Source: Amphibalanus amphitrite
Lineage: Eukaryota > Arthropoda > Thecostraca > Balanomorpha > Balanidae
Length of the DNA stretch: 64,000 nt
Assembly: GCF_019059575.1 (NCBI RefSeq)
Contig: NW_024882718.1
Coordinates: 1-64,000, forward strand
Direction of reading: 5' to 3'
The notes below the pieces were generated by a model that worked only from the letters and a program-made list of their open reading frames with translations, had not been told where the DNA came from and did no database searches. The position numbers and the translations under genes were made by a program. This document shows positions 986 through 62,040 of this stretch, piece by piece; the stretch's first letter is position 1, and each line of letters starts with the position of its first letter.

Positions 986-2168
986 TTAACCCGCGCCCCA
1001 CTGGGGGGGGGGCTAATTATAGCCCCCCTCCCGTTTTTCTGCAATAACTTCCAAACCACTTGACGTATCGACGCCAAACTTTCAGTACCTTCGGCTGCAT
1101 CAATTTAACACCTTGTGTCAAAATTTAAACTTCGTACCTACCATAGGTCGGCCGGAAATGACGTCAGAGTGACGTCATGTTCGGTCGATTTCGACGCAAA
1201 ACATTGAACCACGGCAATCGCTCCCAAGAGCTCAGTTTTTAAGCTAGATCCAATTTCTTTGCATGAGAGGACTCAGAATAGACTGCGCTATCAAACGGCT
1301 ATCTCGGATTTTCGAAATTATGAAAATTGCCAAAAAAAAATAATAAAATTCAAAATTTATATTTTTACATTTTTTCAATTTCTTTTTGAATTTTCGAAAA
1401 AAACCGGAATATATGTGATAGAACGCATTATTATGACTAGCCCTAGCAAATTTTAGCTAAATATCTTCATAAATGGCCAAGTTATACGCATTGTTGCAAA
1501 AAATTAACAATTGTGAATTTTTCAAATCACTTTTTCAGCACGAATTTGACATCGTACGCCAATATAAATAGCACCATGGTGTTCCTGAGCTCAAACTGCA
1601 TCCAATAGACACCTTTTGTGTTGAAAAATTCTAACTTCAAAATTTGACCTTTTTTGACCTGAAAGTGACCTGACCTAAGCTAAATTTGACTCAAAATGAA
1701 CTCGAATGACACAGACGACATCAAATTCAAAATGTTTGGCCTAAATGGACCATAAAACATGTGTCACGTGACCGACGGATGATATAATATTTTCGTGACC
1801 TGTGATGACCTGACCTTGACCTGAAAATCAAAGTACAAGTTTGGTACCCTCAGAGTATCTAGAGCATCTGTTCACGAGTGTGTGAACCAAAAATGAGCCT
1901 GATCTGACTTGTAAGACGGCGGCCAGAGCCCAAAACGTGAAGAAGCCAAAATGCTAATAATTTTTACTTTGACCTGACCTGTGACGTCATCGGTGACCTC
2001 GAGGTCAATGAAATTAGGTTTCGCTCGACAGTTTTTCCGGGGCTATCAGACGCCGTTTGAATTTTGACGATCGGCCCAGTAGTTTTGGAGTTAGGAGCGG
2101 GGGCTATGAATAGCCCCCCCCCCCCAGTAGGGCGTGTTATACGCAGACCCCAGTGGGGCGCGGGTTAA
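986..2168. mobile_element. TTAA-flanked TIR element, subfamily A
   Basis: The element starts TTAACCCGCGCCCCACTGGG and ends with the inverted counterpart GGGGCGCGGGTTAA. Both termini carry a G-run/C-run hairpin just inside (about 1003-1030 and 2101-2125). Between them lie TGACCT motifs and an AT-rich stretch, with no coding region. The TTAA at 2165-2168 also serves as the left TTAA of the next element, so the two abut. A second copy in opposite orientation forms the ends of the 16021-22205 element, which confirms the boundaries. TTAA plus CCC ends fit piggyBac-type transposition; family membership is inferred because no transposase is present. Confidence 0.8.
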
Positions 2169-3051
2169 CCCTCGCCAGTATAGGGGGGGGGGGGGGTCGA
2201 ATGGACCCCCCCATGGTTTTTTCGCGAATAACTCGCGTAAAAAGCGGCTGATCGCGACGAAACTTTCAGTACCCTCGCGTTTATCAATTTCACACCTACC
2301 CTGAAATTTTCATGACCCTGACCCAAATGACCTTTGACCTGTGACCTACTTTTCGAGACCATGTTTGGCTGGAATCGCGATTCGGCGTATGTCGGCTCGC
2401 ATTAGCCGCGCGTTTGCAGTCTTTTCGTGGTTTCAAGCGTTCAAACATGTGATATGATGTTACCCCCATGCATTAGGGTGGGTGTCAAGGTCACCTGAAG
2501 GTCAGGTCAGGTCATTGACCTTTGATGACCTCGGTTCACTTTTTCGAGTTTTACATGTTTATAGGCCAGTTTTTGGAGCTGAATTCGAATTTAGCAACCA
2601 TATGAACATTTACGAAGTAGTTTTGGCACCTTCGTAGCATGTTACGAAGCTGTCAGAGGCGGTTGCCACCTACTACGAATACCCTTACTGGTTGACCTGA
2701 CCTGACCTGACCCGACCTTGCCTAAATACATGAAGACATCATCTGGTATCAAAACTAACATGATATTCGTGATCAGCACCCCGAAAAAACCCCATAGCAG
2801 CCACACTTTACGACGTTCTAACAGGTCCCGATTTTCCCGCCTTTGGGGTCATTGACCTGACCTGCAAGGTCAACCAATGACCTAGGACCTTAAAATTGGG
2901 TATCATCGGCTTCCTCTCGTCACGGGCAACACGCTCGTTTTTTCCGCGAAACTCTAGCTCGATCAGGGGCGAAACGGCAAGGGGGGTCCAACGGACCCCC
3001 CCCCCCTTATACGTTCGCGGCTGGAAAAACACCAATACGGGTGAGGGTTAA
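2165..3051. mobile_element. TTAA-flanked TIR element, subfamily B
   Basis: It starts TTAACCCTCGCC and ends GTGAGGGTTAA, about 887 bp. Both ends have a G-run/C-run hairpin (2182-2213 and 2979-3006). The body has TGACCT repeats and phrases such as TCCCGATTTTCCCG that recur in the copies at 8086-8966 and 22894-23790. It directly abuts subfamily A at a shared TTAA. Open frames in it are repeat artefacts. It is a non-autonomous element. Confidence 0.8.
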
Positions 3052-3982
3052 GTCGCCAACAAGTCATAAAACAAAATATTGCAGTTATATTTCATCGGTC
3101 AGAATAAAGGTCAGACCGATCGGTGTAGTAAATGGACAGGTGATCATTCCAGATGATTTATGAATGGTGCTTTAAGATTACTTGTGGTCAAATGTCAAGA
3201 TATCCCGATGACATTTTCTGACTAACAGGCTCATAACTCGAAGACTGATAAAGCTAGAAACTTGCCAGTCTTCCGCTACTGTGTGTCCTTAGTTTTGAAT
3301 GGACGTCAACAGCCATTGTCTGGACTGCAAAGGGTCTGGATAACAAGACGTCAGAATTGACGTTTTGTGGAAGACGTTTCACACCATGGTTGCACAAAGC
3401 GATAGAAGGCATGCATCGGCATGTAATACTTGTATCGGTATCGTTTTTAGAGGCCTGGTGAGTTGAAATGACCTTGTAACCTGACCTAATGTGACCTGGG
3501 TCAAAAGCTTTTACACGCGATGCCAAATTAACATATGATAAGCTGTATCAAGTGCTGCCGCGCTGGGCACCGCGATTTTTTTACGCAAAAAAAAAAACTG
3601 GCGTGTGTGGCCGAAAACACCCCCGCCCCTTCGAGGCCCAAGGTTAACCTCCCATTTTTCGCCAATAACATATACCTAACCTAAGTCTTCACGGCAGCAT
3701 ACGTCGACGCTCGAGCCTTTTGTACCTTATCATACATCAATTTGGTGAGTCCCCTGAAATTTTAAACGAAATTCGTCCATTTTTTAAATGCTGTTTTAGT
3801 CACGTCATATCACTCAGCTTTTGCTTTAAAAACTGCTAATTTCAGATGCGTCCTAACATCTTTAGCTTTAATAGAATCAAGACGAACGAAAATGTTGCAA
3901 GATCCTGTAGTTTGTCTTTCAAATAGCGATTTTGGCTCTTGATAATTTTCCATTTGCATCCTTTTTTCTTTCAAAAAGTATT
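3052..3982. other. Degenerate element remnants
   Basis: No gene is supported. About 3470-3650 resembles a decayed end of a TTAA element: TGACCTGACCTAATGTGACC, a damaged GC palindrome near 3556-3580 and a TTAA at 3644-3647. The remainder is AT-rich and unrecognised. Confidence 0.4.
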
Positions 3983-5399
3983 TTAACCCTCGCCGGCCGA
4001 GGGGGGGGGGGGTTGCCGCCCCCCCTCATAGTTTTTTTTTCGCGATAGCTCCGAACACGCTGGGGATAGAGAGCTGAAACTTGGCATACCTGACCTTTGA
4101 TTCAAGGCGGATCTTTAGACACCAACCGCATTTTTAGGTCAGGTCAGGTCACTGACCTATGATGTCATAAGTGAACCTCTCCACGGTCTTCAGATGTCGC
4201 AACTTCGCAACGCCCTCACTGCCAGAGGAGATGTCACAGGGAAATGAAACTTGCAGGATCTAGTATCCATTATGAGTCTCACAACTTGTATATCTCGGAT
4301 TTTTCCTAAAGGTCATATGAGGTCAGGTCATTTTCGTGACCTCACCATTATAAGTCAATGGGGAAAAATGAAAACTGCTATTCTGGCGCCAGGAACGATC
4401 TCCAACTATCTCAAGCACACAGAATCGTGATTTGATGCACTCCTTGCAAGGTTAGATGCGTCACTTTTGCAATGTTGACCTTGCGTGACGTCATTAATGA
4501 CGTCATCATGGTCATATTAGTTTTTCGTCAATAACTCTTGATCAAATTGAGTTAGCGAATCGGGAAAGCCACCAATAGACTCAGGAAGACCTGCCAAATC
4601 GAATGATATGCGACATGACCTCTTTCGACCAACTTCGTGACCTGGGGGTGCTGACCTGACCTTGACCTGAGGTCAACACCCCAAGTTGACCTGACCTGGA
4701 CAAAAAGTATATCATTCGACGCGCCTGAGCGAGGCGAACACGATGCTGCCAAAATCGCGGCTCTGCGGCCGTTTTTTGCGAAGTTATTCACCAAAAACTG
4801 AGCCGTACCTTGGGGCAAGTGACCTGACCTCAGAGGTCACCGGTTGACCTAGGACCTTAAAATCGGGTACCAATCTCTGCGTCGGCCGAGGGAGGGGGGG
4901 GTGCCGCTCCCCACAAAGGTTTTTTTCGCGATAGCCACAAGCACGCTGGCGATAGAGAGCTGAAACTTGGCATATCTGACCTTTGATTCAAGCCGGATCT
5001 TTTGACACCAGTCACCAACCGCATTTTCGGGTCAGGTCAGGTGACTGACCTATGACGTCATAAGTGAACCTCTGCAGTACCACCAGAGAAGTAATTTCTC
5101 TAAGTATAAAATAGGCGGACTGGCGACGGGCTTCTGGTCTGCTGGCTGGGCGGTCGGGGGCGGTGGTCGTGCCCCCTACCTTGTAGAGAACTAGGAGAGG
5201 TGCCTGAAGATAAGCGCTTGTCGCTTCTGCACCAATCCGTGTGAATGCACGACTGTGATAATGTTTTTTATAAATAAAATATGAATCCTCACACTTCACA
5301 GCCAGAGGAGCTTTCACAGAGAAATGAAACTTGCAGGATCTTGTATCCATTACGAGTCTCACAACTTGTAGATCTCGGATTTTTCCTAAAGGTCATATG

Positions 5400-6900
5400 C
5401 AGGGATGCGGAGCCGGAGCCGGAGTCGGAGCCGGAGCCGCCGGAGCCGACATATTTTGCCCGGAGCCGGAGCCGGAGCCGGAGCCGTGAAACAATATAGC
5501 CCGGAGCCGGAGCCGGAGCCGGAGCCGCCAAAAAAGGGGGCGACTCCGGCTCCTTTTTATTTTTTGAAGAGGAAAAAAAATAATTGACCTAGTTCGGTTT
5601 GACAGTACAAGGCAGTAAAACATATGGTACTTTACTTACGTCATGGGCCATCAAGTGAATGAAAAAAAGCCGAATATCCCCAGTATCCCACAGTAGGTAC
5701 GCAATCAACTTCTTGTCTGCTCCTCCCCCCCCCCCCCCACGTCTACTGCATCCCCAGAACATGAGGACCGGTCATCAGGTGACGGCCATTGTTTTCAAGC
5801 CAGTGGCAGTGGACTGCGACTCCCAGCACCGTCTCTTCCCCTCCCCCCCCCCCACTCCCACCCCCCAATGCAGCCGAGACTGGTGTCAGCTTACGATGGT
5901 TCAGTGAACTCCAATTCGCGGCGACTGCGTTTCCAATGCCATCGCTTCCTAGTCCTTTGTTCTGCCAGTTCTCTCCAAGGCCCTATATACCAGGTAGGGT
6001 CGTCCGGCGATTCTACCTGATCGTGACGTCAGCTCGTGACGTCATCTGGGGGCAAGTCTTGAAGTCCCGTTTAAGTCCTATGCAAATGGGCGATTTTTGA
6101 AGCGCTGTAGAACAAACTCTGCTAAAGCTAGCACAAAACTAAGTGCATCATCGGAAAGCCGAGACATTTTTCTTCGAATTATCTAAGAAGCGTTTTTCAC
6201 TAAACCCATTAGTTTTTCCAAAAATGCGTAAAAAACCCCCATGCCTCCGCAGCCCCCCTTCCGCCGGCCGCCACGCCGCCGCGGTAGTGTAGTGGTTAGG
6301 ATGCTTGCGCCGTAATCCAAAGATCGTGCGTTCGAATCTAGGCGCGGGTCGTACTTAAATCGAAATTGCAAGCAGAATATGTGTTTTTTCTTGATAAATC
6401 ACTTATAATACAGCTAACCGTTCATAAAACTATCGATAACAATTGACTGAAACCCGAAATATAGAATACATTCTGTTAAAACAAATTCAAATATGGCGGC
6501 CGTTGCGCCAGGCTCCGCCCCCGACTCCGCCCCTTCGTGTGACGTCATCTGTGCACTTGGACACACAGGGAGATAGGGGACGACATGGGCCTGGTTCTCT
6601 CCGAGGTGCGTTTGCGCGGGGACGCGGTGAGCCGGTCATGGCAAAGAGTAACGCGTATAACCAATCCAATTTTTCTTCCACTCGTATTTAATTGATTGCA
6701 TAGGGGATGTACTGAGTCGGAGCCGGAGCCGCCGGAGCCGGAGCCGCCGGAGCCGGACCATTTTACTCGGAGCCGGAGCCGGAGCCGGAGCCACCACAAC
6801 ATTTCACCCGGAGCCGGAGCCGGAGCCGGAGTCGATTTTTTCCTCCGGAGCCGGAGCCGGAGCCGGAGCCGTCTGAAATTTCCACGGCTCCGCATCCCTG
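5400..6900. mobile_element. hAT-like non-autonomous element with GGAGCC minisatellite ends
   Basis: The termini are CAGGGATGCGGAGCCG and its inverse CGGCTCCGCATCCCTG. The flanks are an exact 8-bp duplication GTCATATG (5392-5399 and 6901-6908). CAGGG ends and 8-bp duplications are hAT hallmarks. Just inside each end lies a GGAGCC repeat array (about 5405-5530 and 6710-6870), in the same strand sense at both ends. The interior holds C-runs (5724-5740, 5840-5865), a tRNA-like sequence and GC boxes, but no transposase. Arginine/serine or proline/glutamate-rich open frames here are products of the GGAGCC array, not proteins I would call. Confidence 0.8.
6275..6352 (+). other. tRNA-like sequence (SINE head or pseudogene)
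   Basis: It has an A-box-like block (TAGTGTAGTGGTTAGGATGC) and a B-box (GTGCGTTCGAATC) at tRNA spacing, so an RNA polymerase III promoter is plausible. The anticodon stem pairs poorly and position 33 is not T, so a working tRNA is unlikely. It lies inside the hAT-like element. Confidence 0.5.
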
Positions 6901-7604
6901 GTCATATGAGGTAAGGTCATTTTCGTGACCTCACCATTATATGGGGTCAATGAGGAAAAATGAAAACTGTTATTCTGGCGCGGGGAACGATCTCCAACTA
7001 TCTAAAGCACACATAATCGTGATTTCATGCACTCCTTGCAAGGTAAGATGCGTTACTTTTGCAAAGCTGACCTTGCGTGACGTAATTTATGACGTCATCA
7101 AGGTAATATTAGTTTTTCGTCAATAACTCTCGATCAAATTGAGTTAGTGAGTCGGGAAAGCCATCAATGGACTCAGGAAGACCTGCCGTATCGAATGATA
7201 TGCGACATGACCTCCTTCGACCAACTTCGTGACATGGGGGCGCTGACCTGACCGTGACCTGAAGTCAACACCCAAAGTTGACATCACCCAAACATTAAGT
7301 ATATCATTCGACGCGTCTGAGCAAGCCGAATACGATGGTGCCAAAATCGCGGCTCTGCGGCCGTTTATTTCGAAGTTATTCACCAAAAACTGAACCGTAC
7401 CTTGGAGCACTTGACCTGACCTCAGAGGTGACTGGTTGACCTAGAACCTTAAAATCGAGTATCAATCTCTGCGTCTCGTAACGGTGCACACGCTCGTTTT
7501 TTTCGCGACGCGCTAGCTCCACCAGGGGCGAAACGACGAGGGGGGGGGCGTATCCGACCCCCTCGGTCAGCGCGTATGTAGAAAACCAATAGGTCCGGCG
7601 AGGG

Positions 7605-7880
7605 CTATCGAATGCGCTTCTCCGCGGCGCTGTAGCTCTATTGGTAGCTCTATTGTCGACATTCGACCTGAAAATCGGCGAAATTTTGCCCTCAATGACC
7701 ACTGGTGACTTGACTTTTGACCTGACCAAAACAGTGACCGAAGTGATTTCGTCATTATTTTTGGCGCTCTTTTCCGGGTATCGCTACGTGGCCCAGGAGA
7801 CGAGGTAGAAGGGGGGTGTTCAAACACCCCCACCCCAGCAGAGCGTGGAAATCCAGGACCCCCAGTGGGGCGCGGGTTAA
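7605..7880. mobile_element. TTAA element right-end fragment, subfamily D
   Basis: It starts in the middle of a body (ATCGAATGCGCTTCTCCGCG), which recurs at about 45456. It ends with a C-run hairpin and CAGTGGGGCGCGGGTTAA at 7880. The left part is missing; subfamily C joins it directly. Confidence 0.55.
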
Positions 7881-8085: not shown

Positions 8086-8966
8086 TTAAACCTCGCCCGT
8101 ATAGGAGGGGTCGAACTGACCCCCCTAAGGTTTTTCGCGAATAACTCGCGTGTAAAGCGGCCGATCACGATGAAACTTTCAGTACCCTCGCGTTATTCAA
8201 TTTTACACCTACCCTGAAATTTTCATGACCCTGACCTCAATGACCTTTGACCTGTGACCTACTTTTCGAGACCATGTCTGGCCGGAGTCGCGATTCGGCG
8301 TATGTCGGCTCGCATTAGCGGCGCGTTTGCAGTCTTTTCGTGGTTTTAAGCGTTCAAACATGGGATTTGATGTTGCTCCCATGCATTAGGGTGGGTGTCA
8401 AGGTCACCGGAAGGTCAGGTCAGTTCATTGACTTTTGATGACCTCGGTTCACTTTTTCGAATTTTACATGTTTCTAAATTCTAGGCCAGCTTTAGGAGCT
8501 GTGATTCGAATTTAGCAACCATATGAACATTTACGAAGTAGTTTTGGTGCCTTCCTAACATGTTACGAAGCTGTCAGAGGCGGTTGCCACCTACTACGAA
8601 TACCGTGACTGGTTGACCTGACCTGACCCGACCTGGCCTAAATGAATGAAGACATCATCTGTGATAAAAACTAACATGATATTCGTGATCAGCACCCCGA
8701 AAAACCTCATAGCAGCCACGCTTTACGACTTTCTGACAGGTCCCGATTTTCCCGACTTTTGGGTCATTGACCTGACCTGGAAGGTCACCCGATGACCTAG
8801 AACCTTAAAATTGGGTATCATCGGCTTTCTCTCGTCACGGGCAACACGCTCGTTTTTTCCGCGAAGCCTTAGCTTGATCAGGGGCGAAACGGCAAGGGGG
8901 GTCCAACGGCCCCCCCCCCCCTTATACGTTCGCGGCTGGAAAAACACCAGTACGGGCGAGGGCTAA
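8086..8966. mobile_element. TTAA-type element, subfamily B, second copy
   Basis: The left end is TTAAACCTCGCCCG and the right end TACGGGCGAGGGCTAA, so the TTAA has decayed at the right. The body follows the copy at 2165-3051 almost throughout in the same orientation, including the G/C hairpins and the TGACCTGACC cluster near 8614. No coding capacity. Confidence 0.75.
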
Positions 8967-9911: not shown

Positions 9912-10172
9912 ATGAGGTCGCTGGAGGGAGCGCCGGCCGACGTCTCGGAGCAGGCACACCTATCGGAGCTCTGCGTGGAAGACGGCCAGTCTCCCCGCTC
10001 AGTGGACCTGGACGGCGACTTTACCTACCGGCTGGTGGGCGTCGTCAGCCACTACGGCAGCGCCACGCACTCTGGGCACTACGTGTCGGATGTGTACAGC
10101 GTCGGAAGGGACAGGTGGTTCCACTACGACGACCGGCGCGTCAGCTGTGTGGACGAGGCCAGGTCATGTCAG
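9912..10172 (+). CDS. Ubiquitin carboxyl-terminal hydrolase exon, USP37-like (partial)
   Basis: The reading frame encodes the C-terminal catalytic block of a ubiquitin-specific protease (peptidase C19), which removes ubiquitin from proteins. It contains YRLVGVVSHYGS, then SGHYVSDVY with the catalytic His, then WFHYDDRRVS with the usual acidic/Asn-box position. This arrangement resembles the USP26/29/37 group. The Cys box and the rest of the domain are absent from the window, so this would be one exon of a larger gene or a stranded fragment. The ATG at 9912 is simply in frame; the true exon start may be a splice acceptor near 9895-9915. A candidate donor CAG/GTCAGT lies at 10170-10176. From about 10159 the DNA matches a TTAA element, so the last codons and the donor come from transposon sequence. 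No coding shadow of this exon occurs elsewhere in the window. Confidence 0.65.
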
Positions 10173-11200
10173 GTCAGTACACAAGGTCAAGTTAACTGAC
10201 CAAGCCTAAAAAAAGTTTGCAATCATGTCCAGTCTGCAGTGTTTGTCAGAAAGGTTTCAAACTTGGTGGATTGCATGCTGTTATGGGCGCCTACAATTTG
10301 TATATCTCGGATTTTTTATATCCGTGACCTAAGGTCAGGTCAGTTGCATGACCTTTCCATTACAAGTCAATGGAGAAAAATGAAAATGCCTCTAGATCCG
10401 TGTGTACGCATAGAAACAGTCCAAATATTTCAGAATCACAATGACTTAGTCCACTCGTGATGACCAAGGTGTCATTTTTGCTGATAGCCTTTAGAAAGGT
10501 CATCCGAGGTCATTTGAGGCTACAAACAGTTTTTTGCCCATAACTCGCGATTGAAAAGAGATAGAACGCTGGGGTTGGTCTCATTGTGTTTGTCTTGTTG
10601 AGACGCATCGACTGACATGCAACATGACCTTTTCCGGTCAGGTCATGACCTTGACCTGAGGTCAAATTTTCAAGTTGACCTTTCAAGGTCAAATTATAGT
10701 TCATTCGACGCGTCTCGGCGAGAGGAACACGATTCTGGCGATATAAATGTCGTGGCTTTTTGTAGTCGAAAGTTATTGTCGAAAAACACTTTTCGTAAAA
10801 GCAGCTATTTTTGGAGTTTTTGCCCTCTGGAGGCTAAACCGTTGACCTGAGGGCAATATTGATAATAACCTTTTCAAAAGAAGAGTTCAAAAACTATCGA
10901 TTGTTGTTCCATGCGTTTTTCTAGCTACCATAGTTCCTGAGATAGTGGCATGTTTTCTGAAAAATATAATGACGATTGGCAAATTTTGACCTTTGATGAC
11001 CTCTGGTGACCCGAATATTGCTCTATGGTGAAAAATGACTGAAATACTTTCAAACGTACGCATTGAGAGCTATCGACTGATTTTTACCGCGTCTTTCTAG
11101 CCCTCTTAGTTTTTGAGTTAGAGGTGGGTGGTAACATATGCCCCCCCCCCCCCCCCCACTAGGGCGAAGTTGGCTGAAGCCGCCACTGGGGCGCGGGTAA
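10159..11200. mobile_element. TTAA element, subfamily F, left end missing
   Basis: The sequence from CCAGGTCATGTCAGG onward is the inverted counterpart of the complete copy at 30436-31627. It ends with a C-run hairpin and a decayed CACTGGGGCGCGGGTAA at 11200. About 150 bp of the left terminus is absent and is replaced directly by the ubiquitin protease exon. Confidence 0.7.
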
Positions 11201-11704
11201 AAAAAAACAGAAAAATTATGTTCTGGAACGAAGCTCTTAGCTGACTTAGGAACGAGACCGACCATCCCAAAATGTTGGCTTAAGTGCAAACTGGTAATGC
11301 ATTTTTGACCGTGGTCAATTTGCTTTGCTTACACCAGTTATTACCACACCCCTCCGGCTAATGTAGGTATTTGAATAGGACAGGCGTACAGGATAAGATG
11401 AAAAATATCGGCGCTCGTGCCATCTTTTCACTCGGGACGATCGGTCTCTCGTTAAACGATTACCACACTCGTGCTGATAATTTTTTATCATCCCGGCAGA
11501 CCCATGCATAATTATATGTATCTTCCACTCGGAGCCATGAAGAATCGTCTATATCTTCCACTCAGAGCCATGCAGAATCCTATATAGGTATCTTACGTGA
11601 GCTTGTTCAACAAAGGAATTGTTTTTTATGAGTCCAAATGAGCACGCGAGCCCTTGCTATTGAATATACAACGAGTACTTACTTCATAGTTTTGTGTCAA
11701 CGTC
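11201..11704. repeat. Spacer with a short tandem duplication
   Basis: A unit of about 50 bp beginning TATCTTCCACTC occurs twice (about 11518 and 11551), with a trailing GTATCTT. Otherwise the region has no recognisable gene or element. Confidence 0.4.
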
Positions 11705-12651
11705 TTAACCCTCGCCCGTAAACGGCGATCTGCCACCTTCGCCCATGCAGGGGGGGGGGGTTGGTGCGACCCCCCCTTGGCGTTTGAAAACGGAGCGTCG
11801 TAGAGCTTAGCGGAAAAAACCAACGGATTGCTCTCAACGAGATCTCGCGATTGGTGGTATATTTTTTGGTCGTAGGTCAACATTTGACCTACTTTTGACC
11901 GGTCAAAGGTCAAATTTTCGGAAAAATAGACTTTTTTTCAACTTTCCGCGGCGATTGCGGCAAAACGGTGGGCGATATCGACTTGAAACCTTCACTATCG
12001 TGTTCCTTGATCAATTCTCTATCGTTTGGTATGTATTTCGTTTCCCTAGCTCTAAAAATGGCGCGTTGGGAGCGCCGGAAGTCGGCAAGGTCACAGTCGG
12101 CGGCAGAAATTCGAAAAATCAGGATTTAAATTTTTGAAATCTGATTGTATTTTTGGATTTGGGAGGTCCATTTGCTCCCTATAGAAGCTAATATTGCTGC
12201 ATATTCCCATTGAGGTGACAAGAATTAGCAAAATAGTGGTTCGGGCGCTTTTCAAAAATAGTACCGGACGCTGTTCCTCTTGTGACGTCATAGCTCCGTG
12301 ACCTGACCTGACCCGGTCAAGTTTCTTATACCATATGATAGCCAATACTTGCCCCAACATGCATGGGAAGTTTCATCACGATCCATCAACCGATGTCCGT
12401 ACCACCGGCAGGAAACCTCGGGCGTTGGCACTCAGTTTGTGAAAATCCGGCCGGAGGCTGTTCCCTTTGTGACGTCATAACTCCGTGACCTGACATGACC
12501 CGGTCAATTTTTTTATCAAAAGATGCGCAAGGTTTGCCCTATAAGGTACCCAGAATTTGGCGGCGCTGCGCGCCGCCGTTTTTACACTATTTCCGAAAAA
12601 CCTCAGGGGGGGGGGTTGAACCAACCACCCCCCTACATGGGCGAGGGTTAA
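11705..12651. mobile_element. TTAA-flanked TIR element, subfamily G, copy 1
   Basis: It starts TTAACCCTCGCCCGTAAACG and ends ATGGGCGAGGGTTAA, 947 bp. It carries G-run/C-run hairpins at both ends (about 11751-11776 and 12606-12633) and the subterminal palindrome GCGGCGCTGCGCGCCGC near 12560. A near-identical copy is at 28820-29767. The direct repeat GGTCAAAGGTCA (11901-11912) and TGACGTCA-like sites lie inside. No coding region. Confidence 0.85.
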
Positions 12652-13205
12652 AACCCTCGCCCCGTTGGGGGGGGGGCCATTTTGGCCCCCCCTGTGGTTT
12701 TTCCTGAACAGCAAGAAAACGGCAGCGCGCAGCGCCGCCAAATTTTCAGTACCTTCCCGGGCCTCAATTTGACACCTTCACACCAAATTTCAAGTCTTAG
12801 GTCACCTTAGGTCAGGAGTTATTGAGGTCAAACTGAGGTCATGTTCGAGCAAAAATGAGCAAAAAACATGCAATCTTGAAACGCTCACCAAATCTACAGT
12901 TATCAAGCAATTTCAAAGTTCTTTATATGGTCTAGTAGACAAAAAGCGGCGCTACAAAACTGTTATTTTGGATTTTCAAAATTTTGGGTTTTTGACCCCA
13001 AAAAGTCAAAAAATTGATTTTTTTTAAACTAAAAAAAAAAATCCAAAATGTTTCCGAATTTCGAAAAAAAAAAACGGAATATATGTGATAGTCCCTGCGC
13101 TCTTCTATATACATACCAAATTTCAGATCGATATCTCGTTTTTTGGCCAAGTTATAGCGAAAAAACTGTTCAAAAATGATGACGTCAAATTTTTGAACTC
13201 AATTT

Positions 13206-16423: not shown

Positions 16424-16452
16424 TTGGCGACGAGCGGAGTGAGGACGGAGCC

Positions 16453-32922: not shown

Positions 32923-32951
32923 GTGGCGACGAGGCAAGAACCCACGGCAAG

Positions 32952-50244: not shown

Positions 50245-50749
50245 TTAAAGGGACTATCCCACCTTTAACATGGGGTTTGAGTTGAGATAGCCAAGTTTGC
50301 GGCGAGGTTCAGAAACCACTATCTATCTAGGTTGCAACCCCCGCGGCCTCTTGGTGTTGAAGAAATTCGTTCCCTTCATTTGAAAGTGGGCCTTGTACAA
50401 GGCCCTATCTTCAACATGGAGCGACCGTTAGTGTGACGTCACCTCGTTTAGTCATTCTGATTTAAATGGGTTTGTTCGTTGAAAAATCGCTTAAAACTTG
50501 GTCTGAACTTTGTTGTGGTGCCTACAGAGTAAAAAGAATCAGCTTTATGACAGTAATGTGGCCTGGGGAAGGAGGTAATTTTGGGCTATGATGTCACATA
50601 TTTGAAAGTTTGTGTTTGGAATATGGGAAGCCTAAGATGTTTAATGAAAAATAAATGCCAGAACCGTGTTCCTGGTCATCCAATCTATAAAGTCGGGCAC
50701 AATTTAACTAGTTTTAACAACATTTTAGAAGGTGGGATAGTCCCTTTAA
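50245..50749. mobile_element. TTAA-flanked MITE with AGGGACTATCCC ends
   Basis: The ends AGGGACTATCCCACCTT and AAGGTGGGATAGTCCCT are exact inverted copies between TTAA at 50245-50248 and 50746-50749. The 497-bp interior has no gene. It shares no terminal motif with the CCCTCGCC superfamily, so this is a second TTAA-targeting family. Confidence 0.85.
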
Positions 50750-51119
50750 AGGAAAAGGGCCACCTTCGTGAAATATGAAGATATCGTTGTTTTTCATTTT
50801 GACATTATTATTTTTCATTTTCTTTTTAAAACTGGTGCCAGAAGTGCACAATTCGCGAAAAAGTATTTAAAACTATTTAACATATTGGTACTATGTTGAT
50901 ACTCTCTACGGCACCTACTGTATGATGGCATAGCGATGACGTCACACTCAAGCCAATCAGCGTTCAGAAGACAGACTCGTCGGATTGTGTCAGATAAGCT
51001 GATTGGTTAAAGCTGAGCTGGTTGGAGCTGATTGGTAAAAAACCAAAGCCTCGCCGCGGGTGGCTGTATTGTCGGATAAGAACGCATTCCTGGGATAAGG
51101 ACGCATTCCTAAAACATCA

Positions 51120-52901
51120 GACTCTAAGGAAACGTGGAATATCATCAAGGAATTGTCCACAGGCTCCTCCGAAAACATCAAATTACCTGAGGCATTCAAA
51201 ACAAACAGAGGCCTAGTCCAAGACACCAAAGAAATAGTTACTATGTTTAACAAATTTTTCACGAACATCGGAAAGGAGCTGAAAAGCAAGATAAGAGAAA
51301 CTGAATGCAATCCATTGGATTATCTTCCTAACTACGTAGGAATACCACTTCATCGATTCTCTGCGACAGATGAAAATGAAGTAAAAAATATTGTGAACAA
51401 TATGCGCAATGTGGGAAGTGGTCATGACAAAATAAATACAAAGATATTTAAATCAACATATACATCAATAATAACTGAAATTGTTCACTTAATGAATCTC
51501 TGCCTTCACCAAGGTGTGTTTCCCACCTTATTAAAAAGAGCTGTTATTAAGCCCATTTATAAGTCTGGGGACAAACAGTTATTCAATAACTACCGACCAA
51601 TTTCTTTACTGCCGGTCATCTCGAAATTACTAGAAAAACTCATTTATGCTCGTTTAAGTGAACACTTGACTCAAAATAACATCATCTGTGATAATCAATT
51701 TGGCTTTAGGCAAGGTATGAGTACGTACATGCCTATCGTAATTCTTCAAGAAAAAATTGTAAGTGCTTTTGAAAGTAACTTGAACACTTGCGGAATTTAC
51801 CTCGACCTCCGCAAGGCCTTCGATACAGTTGATATCGAAATATTACTTTGTAAGCTACATAAATATGGCATATGTGATGAAGCACATATGATGCTAAGAT
51901 CATACTTGAACGAACGCACTCAATGTGTACAAATTGATGACATTGAATCATCTATTCTTCCGATAAACATCGGAGTACCTCAGGGATCTATTTTAGGTCC
52001 ACTTCTTTTTATATTGTACATAAATGATTTTATCTCCGTATGTGATGAACACATATCTGTACTTTTATATGCTGATGATACTGCCATTTTCATAGAAGGA
52101 GAAAACGAAAATGTACTTCAAGCTAGAGTAAATACATTAATGCCTAAAGTTGCTGAATGGTTTGCTTCCAACCAGTTGTCTTTAAACTCTGATAAAACGT
52201 ACTATCAGATATATACCAATAAACGGACAGATTTTGAACTAGCAATTCAAATTGATGGTGCTGAAATTGTCCGTGCAAACACTGTTAAATACCTTGGTGT
52301 ATTTATTGATGAAGACCTCAAATGGAAAACACACATAGCCAAACTGCAAACAACATTGTCGAGAAACATTGGAATGATGAATAGGTTAAAGTACCTCTTG
52401 GGCACAAAACACCTTTTGTTATTGTATCATTCTCTTTTCCAGAGTCATGTCAACTACTGCTGCTTTATTTACACTAACACTTATCCAAATAGCTTAAGTG
52501 AATTAGAAAAACTTCAGAAACGAGCTGTTAGAATAATCGATGGACAGCCAAGACTGGCTCATACTGCGCCAATATTCAGGAAATTTAAACTTCTTAAACT
52601 TAGGGATCTTGGGCATCAACAAATGTTATTACTATTACACAGAAAACTTAATGGGAACCTGCCATCTGCTATTGCTGAGCTTTTTGTAACCTCCGAACCT
52701 ACTAGAATTAATCGTTCCGTTAAACATTTCTATGAGTCATTTGCATATAGAGTTTACAAAACTCATACTTTATCATGGGCTGGGCCTAGAATTTGGAACA
52801 GAATTATGGTACCTTTATTTCCTAGACTTTCTACGGTGCCAACTTCGAAATCCGTTATCAAAAACATCTCCAAAAGTTTCTTCCTAAGCCAGTATGGTTG
52901 A
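51120..52901 (+). CDS. Non-LTR retrotransposon reverse transcriptase (5'-truncated, otherwise open)
   Basis: The frame runs without interruption from about 51096 to 52901. Conserved reverse transcriptase blocks are in order: KPIYKSGDKQLFNNYRPISL, QFGFRQGMST, GIYLDLRKAFDTVD with the first catalytic Asp, GVPQGSILGPLLFILYINDF, and LLYADDTAIF with the YADD core. The thumb and C-terminal parts follow (NTVKYLGVFIDEDLKW; LQKRAVRIIDG). The style is that of the CR1/Jockey group, with the clade not resolved. No start codon is certain because the 5' part is lost; an in-frame TTG is at 51153. It uses A/T-rich codons, unlike the GC-rich DNA around it. It copies the element's RNA into DNA at the target site. 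Confidence 0.85.
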   Translation, partial: DSKETWNIIKELSTGSSENIKLPEAFKTNRGLVQDTKEIVTMFNKFFTNIGKELKSKIRETECNPLDYLPNYVGIPLHRFSATDENEVKNIVNNMRNVGSGHDKINTKIFKSTYTSIITEIVHLMNLCLHQGVFPTLLKRAVIKPIYKSGDKQLFNNYRPISLLPVISKLLEKLIYARLSEHLTQNNIICDNQFGFRQGMSTYMPIVILQEKIVSAFESNLNTCGIYLDLRKAFDTVDIEILLCKLHKYGICDEAHMMLRSYLNERTQCVQIDDIESSILPINIGVPQGSILGPLLFILYINDFISVCDEHISVLLYADDTAIFIEGENENVLQARVNTLMPKVAEWFASNQLSLNSDKTYYQIYTNKRTDFELAIQIDGAEIVRANTVKYLGVFIDEDLKWKTHIAKLQTTLSRNIGMMNRLKYLLGTKHLLLLYHSLFQSHVNYCCFIYTNTYPNSLSELEKLQKRAVRIIDGQPRLAHTAPIFRKFKLLKLRDLGHQQMLLLLHRKLNGNLPSAIAELFVTSEPTRINRSVKHFYESFAYRVYKTHTLSWAGPRIWNRIMVPLFPRLSTVPTSKSVIKNISKSFFLSQYG

Positions 52902-53647
52902 TTCATTGAATACAGTGTTTCTCATCAATATATGTTCCATGTATATTAGTATGTACGTTTTATACACATAAAAAACATCTTTATTATCGAGTAGCTAGTT
53001 CTGTTACCCGTCCTTCCTTTTCGGTTACCCCTTTCCCATTGTGTGTATGTGATTTTTTGTGTTCTTTGTTTTTGTTTTTGTTTTTTTTTTGCTTGTTTTT
53101 TTTTTGCGTCTTTTGATATCGCCTGCCAGTCTCGTTATGTTGCCTTTATTGCTTTATTGCCTTACCTGTCCTAATTTCTACACCAGCCACTTCGGAACTG
53201 GCCTCTGTGGGCCGTCTGACAACAAGCCTTGCTTAGTTGGACGGCCCTACAGAGGCTCAGTAAATGACCCTGCCTGAATTTGACCAGAGATGTTACCTAC
53301 AACTATCCACTATGTATGTATGACTGTATCCCCCTCAGTTGTCTTCCTCCCACTAACATTCCCCTGTGTGAGTGAGCATCAGTGGGCGTTTCAGGGATGT
53401 AGGAGGGCAGTCACTAACTGTTTGCAGTTGTGACTACTTTGCTTCTTTTATACCATCTATTAACAGCATGCTTACTCCTCTGATATTCGCCTTCTTTTGT
53501 TTTTTTTCCTTACTCTTAGCAGGGAGTGCCGCGACTTGTCATATTAAGTTGTCTGGTGTTAACGTAAGGTTCTGTGTGTCGCTGGGATAGAGGGAGGGGG
53601 CACTCCTGGTCACCTGTTCATGGGTGGCGGTGTAGAAAAAAAAAAAA
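52902..53647 (+). other. 3' UTR of the LINE
   Basis: This follows the stop codon and ends in an A-run. No coding region. TTTTTG-rich stretches are at 53060-53110. Confidence 0.6.
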
Positions 53648-53655
53648 ATTCCTGG

Positions 53656-54001
53656 CGTATTTTCTTTAAAAATTGCCGATAACTACGAATGGAGGCCGAA
53701 ATCGGCCGTAAGGAGGTAGACAGACAGGTTTTCGGACACGGGCTACAAGATGGCTATCTCAGTTTCAATCCCCATGCTAAAGGTTGCCCTTTTCCTTTAA
53801 GTCATTCAACACATGACGCGCATTTACCATTTAATTTTTTTTCCTTACATGATATGTATCTTTGATGACCTAGCCTGATACTAAAAATTCAGTATCATCA
53901 GTTTGTAAATACATCAGTTTGAAATCGGCATTTTTGTTTGTCCACTTCTTGGTATCCCACAGGTCCAGGGGCACGTCAGGAGTGACGTCACCGCCATCAT
54001 A
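53656..54001 (+). promoter_or_regulatory. 5' flank of the second lectin gene
   Basis: TGACGTCA at 53983-53990 is 11 bp upstream of the ATG. The ATG aligns with the second Met of the other lectins, so the site is at the same distance from the aligned start in all three. No TATA box was identified. Confidence 0.4.
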
Positions 54002-54466
54002 ATGACGTGGACTCTGCGCCTGACGCTGGTGGCCGCTGCCGTCACCGTCATCACTGCAACCTGCCCCTCCTCCGAATGGAAGCAGTTCCGAGAGAAATGC
54101 TACTGGAGGTCCGATGATTATGGGCAATGGGTGGATGTATCCCATGCCTGCACCACGACGCATCCCAACGCAACAATGGTCTCCATCCATGACGCCGAAG
54201 AGAATGCCTTCGTCGCGAAGGAGGTCGCTAGTGGCGGCGAAGCATCTCGACATTACGCCTGGATTGGTCTCTCGAGACACAACAGCTCTTTCCCTTGGAC
54301 GTGGACCGATGGTAGCCCGTATAACTTTAGTTTCTGGTTTGGTAACGACCCAGACTACAGCAGTGGAAATTGTACCTACATTAATTACGTCGACTGGGCC
54401 ATGTGGGGCAGTGCTGGCTGCTCTAATGATTACCTGCATGTCATGTGTCAGATAGCTGCCTTCTGA
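54002..54466 (+). CDS. Secreted C-type lectin-like protein, intact
   Basis: A single 154-residue exon. The signal peptide is about residues 1-20 (MTWTLRLTLVAAAVTVITAT). The lectin-like domain follows: CPSSEWKQF, EKCYWRS, HACTTT, ATMVSIHDAEENAF, YAWIGLSRHNS, WTWTDGSPYNFSFW, NCTYIN, GCSNDYLHVMCQIA. The six-cysteine pattern is complete. The calcium-site EPN/QPD is not present as such (SPYNF). It shares the MTWTLRLTLVAA signal peptide and IHDAEEN motif with the other lectin copies. Extracellular ligand binding is inferred from the family. The start codon is the first ATG with a signal peptide; the preceding ATA matches where the other copies have an earlier Met. A TTAA element starts 159 bp downstream of the stop. 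Confidence 0.85.
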   Translation: MTWTLRLTLVAAAVTVITATCPSSEWKQFREKCYWRSDDYGQWVDVSHACTTTHPNATMVSIHDAEENAFVAKEVASGGEASRHYAWIGLSRHNSSFPWTWTDGSPYNFSFWFGNDPDYSSGNCTYINYVDWAMWGSAGCSNDYLHVMCQIAAF

Positions 54467-55246
54467 GTAATGTCTGCCTCCGGTAGTCGGTACCGCTGAT
54501 GGTGGCCTGCTGAAGACGACCTTATATTGGTATCGGATGTCTGGAGTAACTATCGGCGACGAAAATTGCCTTTCGTTATAATGAACATGGGGGGGGGGGT
54601 TCACAAAACTTTAAGTTCACTTGACTTAACCCTCGCCGTACCTATTGGTTTTCTACATACGCGCCGGCCGAGGGGGGTGGGCGGGTGCGACCCCCTCGCC
54701 GTTTCGCCCCTGGTGGAGCTAGCGCGTCGCGGAAAAAAAAACGAGCGTGTGCACCGCGAGACACACGAGGCGCAGAGATTGGTACCCGATATGAAGGTCC
54801 TAGGTCAACCGGTGACCTCTGAGGTCAGGTAAAGTGCCCCAAGGTACGGTTCAGTTTTTGGCGAACAACTTCGCAAAAAAGCCGCAGAGCCGCGATTTTG
54901 GCAGAATCGTGTTCGCCTCGCTCAGACGCGTCGAATGATATACTTTTTGTTTGGGTCAGGTCAACTTAGGGTGTTAACCTCAGGTCACGGTCAGGTCAGC
55001 GCCCCCAGGTCACGAAGCTGGTCGAAAGATGTCATGTCGCATATCATTCGATTTGGCAGGTCTTCCTGAGTCCATTGGTGACTTTCCCGACTAGCTAGCT
55101 CAATTTGATCGGGAGTTATTGACGAACAACTAATCTAACCTTGGTGACGTCATAAGTGACGTCACGCAAGGTCAACATTGCAAAAGTGACGCATCTTACC
55201 TTGCAAGGAGTGCATCAAACCACGATTCTGTGTGCTTGAGATAGTT

Positions 55247-57050
55247 GGGGCATTCCACGTCAAATCAAACACCGAAATCCGTCATCCCCTTCGATTTTTC
55301 TGAAAATTTGTAGGCAGACTGGGCATGGTTCAAAACTGAGTTACGTATAATATTTTCGAAATTTGATAACGTATCGCTGAGATATAGGTCATCGAATATA
55401 GCGAAAAATGCCACACATCAATTTTTTAAATGGCTATAACTCTGGTTCCTTTTCTGGTATCAAAATAATGTTAACAGGGTCTTATAGGCAATCGATAAGG
55501 CTTTGATTTTTAATTATAAAATTAAATTGAAGTGACCTTGAAATGCATTTGACCTTGAATTAAAACAGAAACATCTAAATAGCAAAAAACACGTCACCTT
55601 CGATTTGGGTAATTTTTACATATTATGTCCGTCACAATGTTCCTAACCATCTGTGAAAAAATTGGAGTGGGCCATTCATAACTTTCGCGGCAAACGCCGT
55701 TTTCATGCATCAACATCACGCAACCGCGCGTGACCTTGAAAGACAGAGTCAAGACATGCTTGCTTGTGTAGTGTGTACACTTTCTGAAATGAATGATTGC
55801 TGATTAGTGATATCCCAAACTCTGCGAGAATGGAAATGCATAGTCATCGTAGTCAAGCATTCCCGTTCTATAGTAAAAGTGTCTCAGGTAAACGGTATTT
55901 TGCGGTGAATTTTGAGCCGTGTGGAAATGCATCATGAAGTAAATTCAACGAAAACATTATCACGCAACGATATCTTCACGTCTTTTGATCTTCACTATAC
56001 GAAAGAACATACATTTTTTAGTATGTATGGGGAATTTCTAGTTAATCCAAATATAAATATGGCAGTTAGAGGCCTGCTAAGAGTAAGATGTCGCCGGCTG
56101 AGGCGGGCTCGGCCGATGCGGGAAACGCAGTAATCACAATTTTGTGTTTACACGTTCATATTTCAATTGTTTACCAACCGATTTTCAAAATTCTTTCACC
56201 ATAAGATTGCCTGTACATTTCTTAGTCTTCTCACAAAATTTGACGCGAATCGAACGTAATCAGCGGTAGGGAGCGCGATATAAAGACGGAACCGTTCCGT
56301 TCCGTCCCGGCACAGTCTACAATTCAGGCGGCGCGTAGCGGTCGGCGCCGGCTGCCGAGTCGCCGCGTCGCTGCGGCGACAGGATGTTCACTTTACACCG
56401 CTATTACTAGAACAGTTGTGAACCGATTTTCTTATTGCTTGCACGATGAGATGTCCAATTCAATTCTTGACAGGTAGTCATAATCAATTTCGCATTAATC
56501 TTATGAGATATTGGCGAAAAACAGGAGGGGTGGGCGAAATTCGCTATTCCCCCTCCACTGCGCGTGCTAACATACGTTTGCATATGTGCAATTTTCTTCC
56601 AAACTTATGAATGGCCCACTCTAATTTTTTTCACAGATTGTTAAGAATATGGTAGGCAATAAAATATATGAAAATGAGCCAAATCGAAGGTGACGTGTTT
56701 TTTGCTATTTCAATATTTGTGCTTAAGAGCAGAGTTAAGCAAATTTCAAGGTCATATATTTAAGTAGGTGCAATTCTAAACAAATGCTTAAGAAATTACC
56801 TAAACAGTAAGGTTTATTTCATTCAAATCAAACGAGTACAACCGAAGTTATGGTCGTTCAAAAATATAAAGATGCAACATTTTGTAAAAATTTGATGCCC
56901 TATATTTAGAAGGCCTGTGATCAGAATGTGCAAAAAACATCAATGTAATGTCCGGGGCCACATAGGAACTCGCTCACAAATTTATAATGAAATCGCTGAT
57001 GGTAAGGTGCAAAACAGCCGATTTTTGTTCGATTTGACGTGGAATGCCCC
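55247..57050. mobile_element. Foldback-type TIR element R
   Basis: The ends are GGGGCATTCCACGTCAAATC and its exact inverse. The flank AGTT (55243-55246, 57051-57054) is a possible 4-bp duplication, and the empty site is present in the subfamily C copy near 46585. Farther in, 55440-55690 and 56600-56870 are inverted copies (for example ACACGTCACCTTCGATTTGG and its complement). No gene is evident in the middle. The superfamily is not assigned. Confidence 0.75.
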
Positions 57051-57072
57051 AGTTGGAGATCGTTCCCGGCGA

Positions 57073-58047
57073 CAGCCCAGCCAGCCTTCTCAAGTGGGGC
57101 CCACATGGGCCCCAAGTGGGCTCCAAACTGGGACCCATCTGGGCTGCCCACCTTGGACCCAGATGGGAATGTCATGGGCGTCCAACTGGGTCCCATCTGG
57201 GCACCCCAGACGGGGCCCATGTGGGACCCATCTGGGGCCCGTATTGAGCCCGCATATGGGCTTTCCCAGTTGGGACCCACATGGGCAGCCCAAGTGGGGC
57301 CCATATGGGACCCAGCTGGGATATATGCATATATATGGGTCCCACACGGGCTTTCCCAGTTGGGACTCAGACGGACACATGCAAAAAGCGCACATGGAAT
57401 TTAATTGGGATTTGGTACCTAGCTTATGTCGTCCACTATTTCCGCGTGAATCCCAAAAAGCAATGTGTTCACACGTGGGAGAACCGCATACCCTTTGCCT
57501 CTCACTAGATCCCCAGAGATTCGAACTCAAGACCTATGGAACATGATGCGGGGACCCTAACCACTACACTACGCTAACACTGCAGGTAGGCGGCCGGCGG
57601 CCGGTAGAGAACGGAAGCGTGGATGCGTACCTATTGTGAAAAAAGGGAAGAGTTCGTAACGATAGTGATAGAGGCCCGAGCGGTCCGTCAGCGCCGTATT
57701 GCGTCTATTTATAGTCACCAACTGCCGGCGCGGCCGCCCCCGCGGCCGCGGCAGCCACACAACGAACACCGGCGACGCAGTAGGTATCAGCGACCTCGCA
57801 GGGACGCGGGCAGGGGTGCGCCCAGGCGGCTGTCAGATCTGGAGTCTGGCAGGGTAGCGGCACAGATCAGGCAGGGTAGCGGCACAGTGGAGGCGCTGGC
57901 CAAGTCCAGCACGTAAAGTTAGCACATCTAGCCCATCTGGGACCCAGTTGGACGCCCATGACATACCCAGATGTAGCCCAGCCCACATTCGCCCAGATGC
58001 CCCACTTCCAGCCCATGTGGGCCCCATTTGGGATGGCTGGCTGGGAG
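57073..58047. mobile_element. Element S with CCCANNTGGG repeats and a tRNA-like core
   Basis: The ends CAGCCCAGCCAGCC and GGCTGGCTGGGAG are inverted copies, imperfect at the outermost bases. Repeats of CCCANNTGGG/ACCC (about 57090-57370 and 57930-58030) occupy both flanks. The centre contains a minus-strand tRNA-like sequence. The long open frame across 56917-57546 is a product of these repeats. Confidence 0.6.
57508..57578 (-). other. tRNA-like sequence, minus strand
   Basis: On the minus strand: TAGTGTAGTGGTTAGGGTCC (A-box), then TGAGTTCGAATC (B-box), with CCCCAGAG/CTCTGGGG in the T-arm. It resembles the tRNA-like block at 6275-6352. The anticodon stem is weak. Confidence 0.5.
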
Positions 58048-58454
58048 AATAGCAGTTTTCATTTTCCCCATTAACTTATATAATTGGTGAGGTCACGAAA
58101 ATGACCTGATCTCATATAACCCCTAGAAAAAAAACGAGATATACAAGTTGTGAGACTCGTAATGGATACTAGATCATGCAAGTTTCAGTTCCCTGTGAAA
58201 GCTCCTCTGGCAGTGAAGGCGTTGCGAACTTGCGACACCTGAAGACCGTGCAGAGGTTCACTTATGACGTCATAGGTCAGGGACCTGACCTAACCCAAAA
58301 ATGCGGTTGGTGTCAAAAGATCCGGCTTGAATCAAAGGTCAGGTATGCCAAGTGTCAGCTCTCTATCGCCAGCGTGTTCGGAGCTTTCGCGAAAAAACCT
58401 GTGGGGGGGGGGCGGCACCCGCCCTTCTCCCCCCCCTCGGCCGGCGAGGGTTAA

Positions 58455-60835: not shown

Positions 60836-60841
60836 CCTACC
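60791..60841. repeat. 51-bp inverted repeat at the LINE fragment edge
   Basis: GGTAGGTCGCTAT at 60791-60803 and ATAGCGACCTACC at 60829-60841 pair fully, and GTCGC/GCGAC extends the stem. The right arm repeats LINE sequence in inverse orientation, as can arise in 5' inversion during LINE insertion. Confidence 0.7.
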
Positions 60842-60856
60842 GTAGAAAACGTAGTA

Positions 60857-62040
60857 TTAACCCGCGCGGGGCTGGGGTCTCCAGCCGAACGCGCGGGGCT
60901 GGGGGGGGGGGGGTAAATTTTACCCCCCCCTGTTATCTCCCGAACTAATGGTCCGATTTGGAAAATTCAAACGCCAATCGAAAGCTCTCATCACGAACTA
61001 CTAAAAACATGTACTTAATTTAAAGTTTGAGGTCAAGGTCAAGGTCAGGTCAAGGGTACAAATTGCAAGTTTCTACAGTATCGGCCTTGCACCGTAGTTG
61101 CCGAAGAATGGAGTCATGGACTGAGACTGATCGCCCAAAACGTGTTCTTAGGCTACCAAGACAATATTCGTTGCATACAATATCATTCAGAGGTCAAGGT
61201 CAAGGTCAGGTCAGGTCAGGTCAGGTCACAAAAAAACAAAATATAGAAAAGGGCATGTGCGACACATGTTGTATGGGTCATTTTACTCATAGAATTCAAT
61301 AGGCACACTCAATAAGTGATATGGACCACCTCTGGATGAATTTCAGGTCGAGGTCAGGTCAAGGTCAGGTCAAGTGAGGTCAAATTTTGAAGTTGGTTGT
61401 TAAGGCCTAAAAAGGTGTCTATCTGATGCAGTTTTTCACGGCGAATCGAATGGTGCTGTTTTTGTTTCCGTACGAGGTCTAGGACTTCCAAAAAAGTCAT
61501 GTTTCAAAAATTTTGTGTGTCGTGACGTCATAAAATTTTGAATAACTCCCACATTTTTGAACCGATTCTTCTAAAATTTGGTATGTATGTGCACATAGAC
61601 CACTTCTCTGACATATATTCCGGTTTTTTCGATAGACTCAAAATTTTGGATTTTATAATGATTTTCCCAAAAAAGTCAGTTTTTTGAAAAAATTTAGGCC
61701 AAAATCCAAAATTTTCAAAAAACCGAGATAGCCATTTGATAGACAAAGTAAAATTACGTATAACCTTTTTTGTTACGTCTTGATTCCTTTAAAAATGAAG
61801 ATGTTAGCGGCGTTTGAACTTTTGCCGTTTTTGAGGCGAAAATGGCGAACATGACGTCACTAAAACGTCAATTTCTCAAAAAATTCCGACGGATTTCGCT
61901 CAAATTTTCAGGGAATGTGTCAAATTGATGTAAGAAAAGGTACTGAAAGTTTGGCGGCGCTGCGCGCCGCCGTTTTTGAGATATCGCAAAAATTCGCGAG
62001 GGGGGGTAAAATTTACCCCCCCCAGCCCCGCGCGGGTTAA
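60857..62040. mobile_element. TTAA-flanked TIR element, subfamily M
   Basis: It starts TTAACCCGCGCGGGGCTGGG and ends CAGCCCCGCGCGGGTTAA, 1184 bp. G/C hairpins are at both ends and GGCGGCGCTGCGCGCCGCC is subterminal (about 61953-61971). A GGTCA repeat array is at 61193-61228. No gene. TGTAGAAAAC or GTAGAAAAC lies near both outer flanks. Confidence 0.85.

Follow-up and report, generated by a model that had tools for sequence, protein, structure and literature searches.

Hairpin-ended TTAA repeats of the barnacle Amphibalanus amphitrite as probable miniature elements of a piggyBac lineage

What are the TTAA-bounded repeats that fill the first 64 kb of contig NW_024882718.1 of Amphibalanus amphitrite (hereafter the window; G000:C1221:1-64000, in a genome of 807.55 Mb on 2644 contigs), and which transposase could move them? 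A first-pass annotation had described a large element superfamily with G-run hairpin termini, piggyBac-like tips and nuclear-receptor-like bodies. The related elements are real, but their transposase relatives give them the rank of a lineage within piggyBac. Judging from sequence, we are highly confident that they are miniature inverted-repeat transposable elements (MITEs) of one piggyBac cut-and-paste lineage. Supported by the sequences are TTAA target duplication, ends in common with elements carrying a PF13843 transposase frame, loss of the interior in family F, and a MITE core with two sets of ends. What the annotation missed is that the two ends differ in kind, that the hairpin corresponds to a known internal repeat of piggyBac and that the AGGTCA half-sites are phased from one end.

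Exact TTAACCC on both sides delimits 11 spans in the window (986-2168, 2165-3051, 11705-12651, 13206-14719, 16020-22205, 18595-19521, 28820-29767, 32520-37866, 45971-47009, 54626-58454, and 60857-62040), so that the inverted CCC tips of piggyBac are present at each end of all 11; foreign DNA interrupts three (those starting at 13206, 16020, and 54626). About 10 further copies are one-ended or decayed, and the annotated figure of at least fifteen insertions with TTAA at both ends is therefore somewhat too high for exact two-ended elements and too low for insertions overall. TTAACCC occurs 31 times, against 10.0 in dinucleotide shuffles (maximum 18 among 100), TTAACCC[GT]CG 23 times (0.14 expected), and AGGTCA/TGACCT 325 times (29 expected). 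Self-comparison of the window separated families A to I, each with at least one copy, and showed several insertions to be nested; the paired copies that had been noticed are 85–98% identical in the main pairs. The G-run/C-run hairpins just inside the termini are likewise real, as is the conserved AATTTTCAGTACC-like block, which belongs in the aligned families to the subterminal stretch of one end, H (no systematic search of the other, T, was made). An H end consists of a tip of ∼13 nt followed by the G-run palindrome, and a T end of a tip, a spacer, a second (often approximate) tip copy and then the palindrome. No PF13843 frame was seen among the listed window frames of ≥ 110 aa, with four window proteins among the six that were profile-scanned.

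The annotation had proposed searching the host genome for a piggyBac transposase with the same termini, and such transposases exist. A PF13843 profile search of the genome gave at least 116 scored matches. Among the 30 best loci, 26 had at least one plain end facing the frame, mostly of the ATTARYGCC, TTTACCGGGC or AGATCTGCC types, and four had none. The early idea from these 30 loci, that hairpin ends never occur on transposase-bearing elements, was overturned by ten lower-scoring loci, and one of the four end-less loci (L036) turned out, from its flanking sequence, to be a hairpin element. Four families have hairpin termini around a PF13843 frame:

C44:1060842-1064816, C527:290214-294184, and C1173:156154-160130: family X, three 3.97-kb copies that are 99% identical
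C33:447032-451754: family Y, 4.72 kb, with a PF13843 frame
C702:33509-39481: family Z (locus L042), 5,973 bp; its T and H tips match, and a MITE is nested inside it
C778, T end at 130624 and H end near 137,190: family V (locus L036), with a GGCACA tip at both ends; the outer TTAA of its H end reads CTAA

All four frames match the piggyBac structure 6x67 (X 1.2e-73, Y 1.3e-56, Z 2.1e-66, V 1e-74), and the columns of the catalytic residues D268, D346, and D447 are kept in this alignment. In families X and Y, whose frames (P0001 and P0002) are 37% identical over 474 columns, hairpin ends lie on both sides, H upstream (5') and T downstream (3') of the frame. A midpoint-rooted tree of 29 rows, drawn from 40 loci after removal of repeats, placed L042 and L036 in one group with the X and Y rows, with 100/100 support and a long stem; taking this grouping as a prediction, we fetched the flanks of L042 and L036, and both were hairpin-ended. 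All five rows of this clade are hairpin elements, and of the 24 rows outside it, 16 have a plain end toward the frame on one side or both, and eight have no recognized end. Window family F aligns to both end regions of family Z (1-129 at 96%, 159-1184 at 87%) with the interior missing, which supports the suggested mobilization in trans. Family F relative to Z, and the MITE at C527:289270-290217 relative to X, are short, non-coding and share their ends with a transposase-bearing element, as MITEs do. Two tip patterns scanned in viral contigs gave no match. The plain-ended and hairpin kinds also nest in each other, as seen in L028:7-3825, where a plain-ended piggyBac with its transposase (667-3347) lies inside a hairpin MITE.

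Target duplication is supported at two window insertions. The Gypsy pol frame around the element at 18595-19521 is unbroken once a single TTAA is counted as target, and the element at 13206-14719 is missing from the sister F copy at 26829-28031, whose empty site reads TTTCA, one base short of the expected TTTTTAA.

The two ends follow a fixed geometry. The G-run starts 17–18 nt from the TTAA in H ends; in T ends this distance is mostly 43–46 nt, although values of 40, 49, and 50 also occur, and T ends are usually 26–28 nt longer than H ends (23 in L002). Such asymmetry, with a duplicated tip site and a palindromic internal repeat, is also that of piggyBac, for which PMC7351741 gives sufficient ends LE35 and RE63, with a 17-bp insertion and a duplication, and contacts of the dimerization and DNA-binding domain (DDBD) at bp 7–16. 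Among the 29 of 36 different hairpins with loops of 7–11 nt, the three loop-side pairs are Watson–Crick in 74% of cells, compared with 36% after the arms were re-dealt; 0 of 2000 shuffles attained the observed value. The loop-side arms thus compensate across subfamilies, so that the palindrome has been retained despite letter changes, as expected of a dimer site, and the G-run hairpin appears to correspond to the palindromic internal repeat of piggyBac.

Genome-wide, TTAACCCKCGCC has 69,752 matches (117 for the reversed pattern) and TTAACCC-N11-GGGGGG has 40,483 (46 reversed); at roughly 1 kb each, the latter would make up ∼5% of the genome. The 100 tips listed include 38 different 11-mers. 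Variation is concentrated at tip positions 5–10, that is bp 8–13 after TTAA and inside the DDBD-contacted stretch, with bp 4 mostly G or T. The coexistence of many tip codes in one genome is a new feature.

Different ends also sit on the same body. Family E is represented genome-wide by 40 scored copies that are 98–100% identical (233 candidates), and the body of its window copy at 28820-29767 is 92.7% identical to the C527 MITE, although the tips differ. A 25-mer marking this X/E-type body has 3,318 genome matches (control 0). Both tips were exact in 13 of the first 20 places fetched, which carried the E set in five cases, the X set in eight and a mixed set in none; seven copies lacking an exact tip on one side or on both were set aside, their remaining tips looking E-like or X-like, with a variant E-type T spacer in two of them. 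Two window copies and the C527 MITE were then included, giving an alignment of seven E-tip and nine X-tip copies. Between groups, identity is 0.97–1.00 in columns 276–600, equal to that within groups. Taken in windows of 25 columns, it is only 0.68 and then 0.38 at the start of the alignment; the values at columns 851–925 are 0.65, 0.56, and 0.55, and the value at 951–975 is 0.68. The internal region is hence more conserved than the terminal inverted repeats (TIRs), a pattern like that of coral CMITEs. No match to MITE positions 316-544 was found in the transposase-bearing X copies, so the two MITE types descend from an ancestor that already had this core. A near-identical core (97–100%) with two different, internally matched end sets indicates that ends were exchanged. 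Two routes would explain the pattern, in either direction: both ends were replaced, or the core passed into another element when gap repair was interrupted and switched template.

A 21-mer common to the bodies of families B and D has 7,159 matches, and its first 20 places include D-type bodies with GGCCGA tips and B-type bodies with ATGTGTA (six copies) or GGCACA (L084). In the window, copies B1 and B2 have CGTATA-like tips and B3 has ATGTGTA, which makes three tip sets on B-type bodies. The B-type T-side body is also present in the transposase-bearing element at C778.

The TGACCT-rich bodies noted in the annotation were confirmed: 260 of the 325 hexamers in the window fall within the 20.2 kb assigned to elements (12.8/kb vs 1.5/kb elsewhere). 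Of 19 T ends listed for a hexamer scan, one was too short, and 17 of the 18 counted have at least one AGGTCA/TGACCT at nt 155–205 in T-end coordinates. A register test on 15 T ends (leaving out Z, K7880, L045, which has no hexamer, and L022, which is short) placed hexamer clusters at ∼161–205, 321–380, 481–560, and 680–715, with none at 1–140 or 221–300, and within-element distances peak at 140–200 and 300–360. One 50-bp window is common to 15/15 elements, against a mean of 8.8 and a maximum of 13 in 1000 circular shifts; the 15 elements are related, so this does not amount to 15 independent tests. Eight plain-ended piggyBacs of the same genome carry 0–4 hexamers per 2.7–3.3 kb, compared with 12–13 in the X copies and 33 in Y. 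Hexamers on the same strand most often overlap by 1 bp (52 pairs) and next most often are separated by gaps of 4 (27) or 5 (24), among copies that are not independent. Overlapping hexamers at 5-bp steps are not a classic receptor dimer site. The “nuclear-receptor-like” label describes a match to the AGGTCA motif only, and receptor binding would be a guess from the motif. Units of 170 bp starting with ATAACTC were considered, and their positions did not support them. The clusters spaced ∼170 bp apart, in register with the T end and set in bodies that are otherwise hard to align, appear to be a conserved cis module of the lineage. The hexamer is absent from 49000-53800, around a stop-free reverse transcriptase frame of long interspersed nuclear element (LINE) type (51099-52901, 600 aa).

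Several observations weigh against a single piggyBac lineage with these properties. The tree tool warns of long branches meeting at the hairpin clade. The eight outside rows without a recognized end include all five rows of the neighbouring group, and no hairpin end facing the frame was found in 3.6 kb more on each side of L044 and L046 (C1052 and C757); the hairpin architecture, never seen outside the clade, may or may not be confined to it. The main frame of family X has no recognizable cysteine-rich domain (CRD), the 6x67 alignment ending at residue 579, and the CRD of family Z is a weak second match. The tip copies inside one element are merely approximately alike in families E, D, B, and X, and L045 lacks AGGTCA in its first 420 nt. 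TTAA duplication is not exclusive to piggyBac, being used by Kolobok too, and on that basis the elements could belong to another superfamily and merely resemble piggyBac; the CCC termini and the asymmetry like that of the left and right piggyBac ends make this very improbable, and the enclosed PF13843 frames refute it for X, Y, Z, and V (no search for transposases of other superfamilies was made). That the hairpins are assembly or slippage artefacts of G-runs might seem suggested by the wide variation of run length among copies, but with compensating loop-side arms, and with runs that keep one position across tens of thousands of copies, we regard the idea as practically negligible.

Two further alternatives concern how the elements came to look as they do. 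Fast point mutation under co-evolution with the transposase, rather than exchange, could have produced the two tip sets, since the tips lie in the stretch contacted by the DDBD, where co-evolution would be expected. It is unlikely: core identity is the same between as within groups while both ends and ∼100 bp of H subterminal sequence differ throughout, the 16 aligned copies include no intermediates, and the absence of 316-544 from the X transposase copies gives both MITE types one ancestor. The phasing of AGGTCA as a functionless relic of tandem duplication of a 170-bp unit is harder to dismiss, and we hold it to be a substantial possibility, if not the probable one. Close to the H end of family X lie ∼190-bp repeats that are 76% identical, and successive units 1 and 2 retain slight similarity (31.3 vs 22.6 shuffled, sd 4.8), a further point against a functional module, so that the phasing may partly be inherited tandem structure; units 2–3 and 1–3, however, have no clear excess. 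The relic account also has to face the T subterminal alignment of 11 families, in which the AGGTCA module is the best conserved stretch, though moderately (30-column identity 0.54–0.61, against 0.43–0.52 on the tip side and 0.31–0.46 further in).

For the piggyBac lineage, the structure of piggyBac suggests how the parts might work. The variable tip (bp 8–13) would be read by the transposase DDBD, and the G-run/C-run palindrome would be a dimer site for the C-terminal CRD. The extra stretch of the T end, with its second tip copy, may load a second dimer, so that one H end pairs with one T end. Different tips would be read by different transposase sub-lineages, and a MITE core could move onto another element's ends, most likely when interrupted gap repair switches template in shared subterminal sequence. 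Our best guess is that the AGGTCA module serves a host DNA-binding protein and/or nucleosome positioning and would in this way aid expression or transposition. Extending these steps, one may picture a modular piggyBac lineage in which cores pass between transposase sub-lineages, matched end “addresses” are swapped at the hairpin boundary, and nucleosome-spaced (∼170 bp) AGGTCA clusters recruit a host factor of hormone-receptor type and phase chromatin for mobilization, with an estimated hundreds of thousands of phased half-sites scattered across the genome; in this full form the picture is speculative and rather doubtful.

The tip of piggyBac from Trichoplusia ni is CCC, as here. That element (PDB 6x67/6x68; PMC7351741) also shares the TTAA target, a DDD transposase, a short left and a long right end, a duplicated segment and a palindromic CRD site, and its sufficient ends differ by 28 nt, here mostly by 26–28. 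Unlike it, the present elements build their palindrome arms from G/C runs that vary in length, show many tip codes side by side in a single genome, carry AGGTCA arrays in their bodies and amount to a very large MITE load. The CMITEs of Acropora corals (PMC2872659) are likewise piggyBac-type MITEs with TTAA and an internal region more conserved between families than the TIRs; they are ∼100 bp long with a core of unknown source, whereas the elements here measure ∼0.9–1.2 kb, have transposase-bearing relatives and allow exchange to be mapped on a near-identical core. The piggyBat of Myotis lucifugus (PDB 9c0f; PMC11707139 and PMC13405395) belongs to the piggyBac superfamily too. Its structure is a weaker sequence match than 6x67 to the X, Y, Z, and V frames. 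We know of no G-run palindrome or MITE swarm of the present kind in piggyBat.

Three things set this lineage apart: many tip codes coexist, ends have been exchanged in matched sets, and the AGGTCA module is phased. Because one genome contains dozens of end codes beside many piggyBac transposases, co-variation can be used to test how unequal ends are read, and transposase-bearing relatives and a mapped exchange are now available for the “conserved core, changing ends” oddity first described in coral MITEs. Were the phased arrays functional, transposons would be supplying receptor-type sites at nucleosome spacing on a large scale. Titles and abstract beginnings of the open-licence literature contained no account of piggyBac ends with G-run hairpins or of MITEs with AGGTCA; some subfamilies may already be catalogued in Repbase or Dfam.

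The elements of the window, with strand, are as follows:

986-2168, minus: family A copy, 1183 bp, H end 986, T end 2168, TTAACCC and hairpins at both ends; 91.7% identical to 22205-21194
2165-3051, minus: family B copy 1, 887 bp, H end 2165, T end 3051; TTAA 2165-2168 in common with family A
3983-5076, minus: family D fragment, intact H end 3983, second inverted piece from 4880; 95.4% identical to 47010-46107
6900-7622, minus: family D fragment without an exact TTAACCC tip
7780-7880, minus: T end (7880) of another subfamily, loop TGTTTGAACA; 7780 is a nominal inner limit
8086-8966, minus: family B copy 2, tips decayed; 90.3% identical to copy 1
10159-11202, minus: family G copy 2, T side 11202, H end not found; 92.8% identical to 31477-30435
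11705-12651, plus: family E copy 1, T end 11705, H end 12651; 97.0% identical to 28820-29767
12648-14839, minus: family F copy 2, interrupted by family C at 13206-14719; sister copy 26829-27510 lacks the insert
13206-14719, plus: family C copy 1, T end 13206, H end 14719, with its own 578-bp insert at 13561-14138
16020-22205, plus: family A copy 2, T end 16020, H end 22205, split by a Gypsy retrotransposon at ∼16197-21193
18595-19521, plus: family C copy 2, within the Gypsy pol frame, TTAA on either side
22895-23781, minus: family B copy 3, different H tip (ATGTGTA), TTAA decayed
26829-28031, minus: family F copy 1, T end 28031, H tip decayed; relative of C702:33509-39481 without its interior
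28820-29767, plus: family E copy 2, T end 28820, H end 29767
30436-31477, plus: family G copy 1, T end 30436, H end not found
32520-37866, strand unassigned: D-type element, both ends of which are H-type; inside lies a Gypsy whose 244-bp long terminal repeats are identical (32679-32922 and 36763-37006)
45971-47009, plus: family D copy 1, T end 45971, H end 47009
54626-58454, plus: family D copy 2, interrupted by ∼2.8 kb of other DNA (∼55257-58045)
60857-62040, plus: family H, T end 60857, H end 62040
63300-63805, minus: family I, T end 63805; left limit nominal

The D-type element at 32520-37866 is not a simple insertion: 32218-38168 is a large inverted duplication with mirrored flanks around it, the inverted arms (32218-32627 and 37759-38168; 410 bp, 99% identical) reaching ∼300 bp past the TTAACCC ends. 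The insert of the family C element at 13561-14138 recurs inverted in the Gypsy gag region at 16754-17336, as a repeat of ∼580 bp with 97.6% identity.

Apart from these elements, the window holds a degenerate tandem array of 21/42/63-bp, GGGGCGGCACCATCACATTGA-like units at 47059-48504 and three related C-type-lectin-like frames or fragments at 15466-15914, 29835-30344, and 53909-54466. Pfam assigns Lectin_C to the latter two, and 15466-15914 is 82% identical to 29835-30344 over 245 bases. Elsewhere in the assembly, the 15,683-bp contig L094 (G000:C2644), with COX1 at its start, is probably the mitochondrial genome; its COX1 reads well under invertebrate mitochondrial code 5, with ATA as Met, AAA as Lys and AGA as Ser, which speaks against an echinoderm, hemichordate, tunicate or vertebrate host, and the AGG codon is absent from it.

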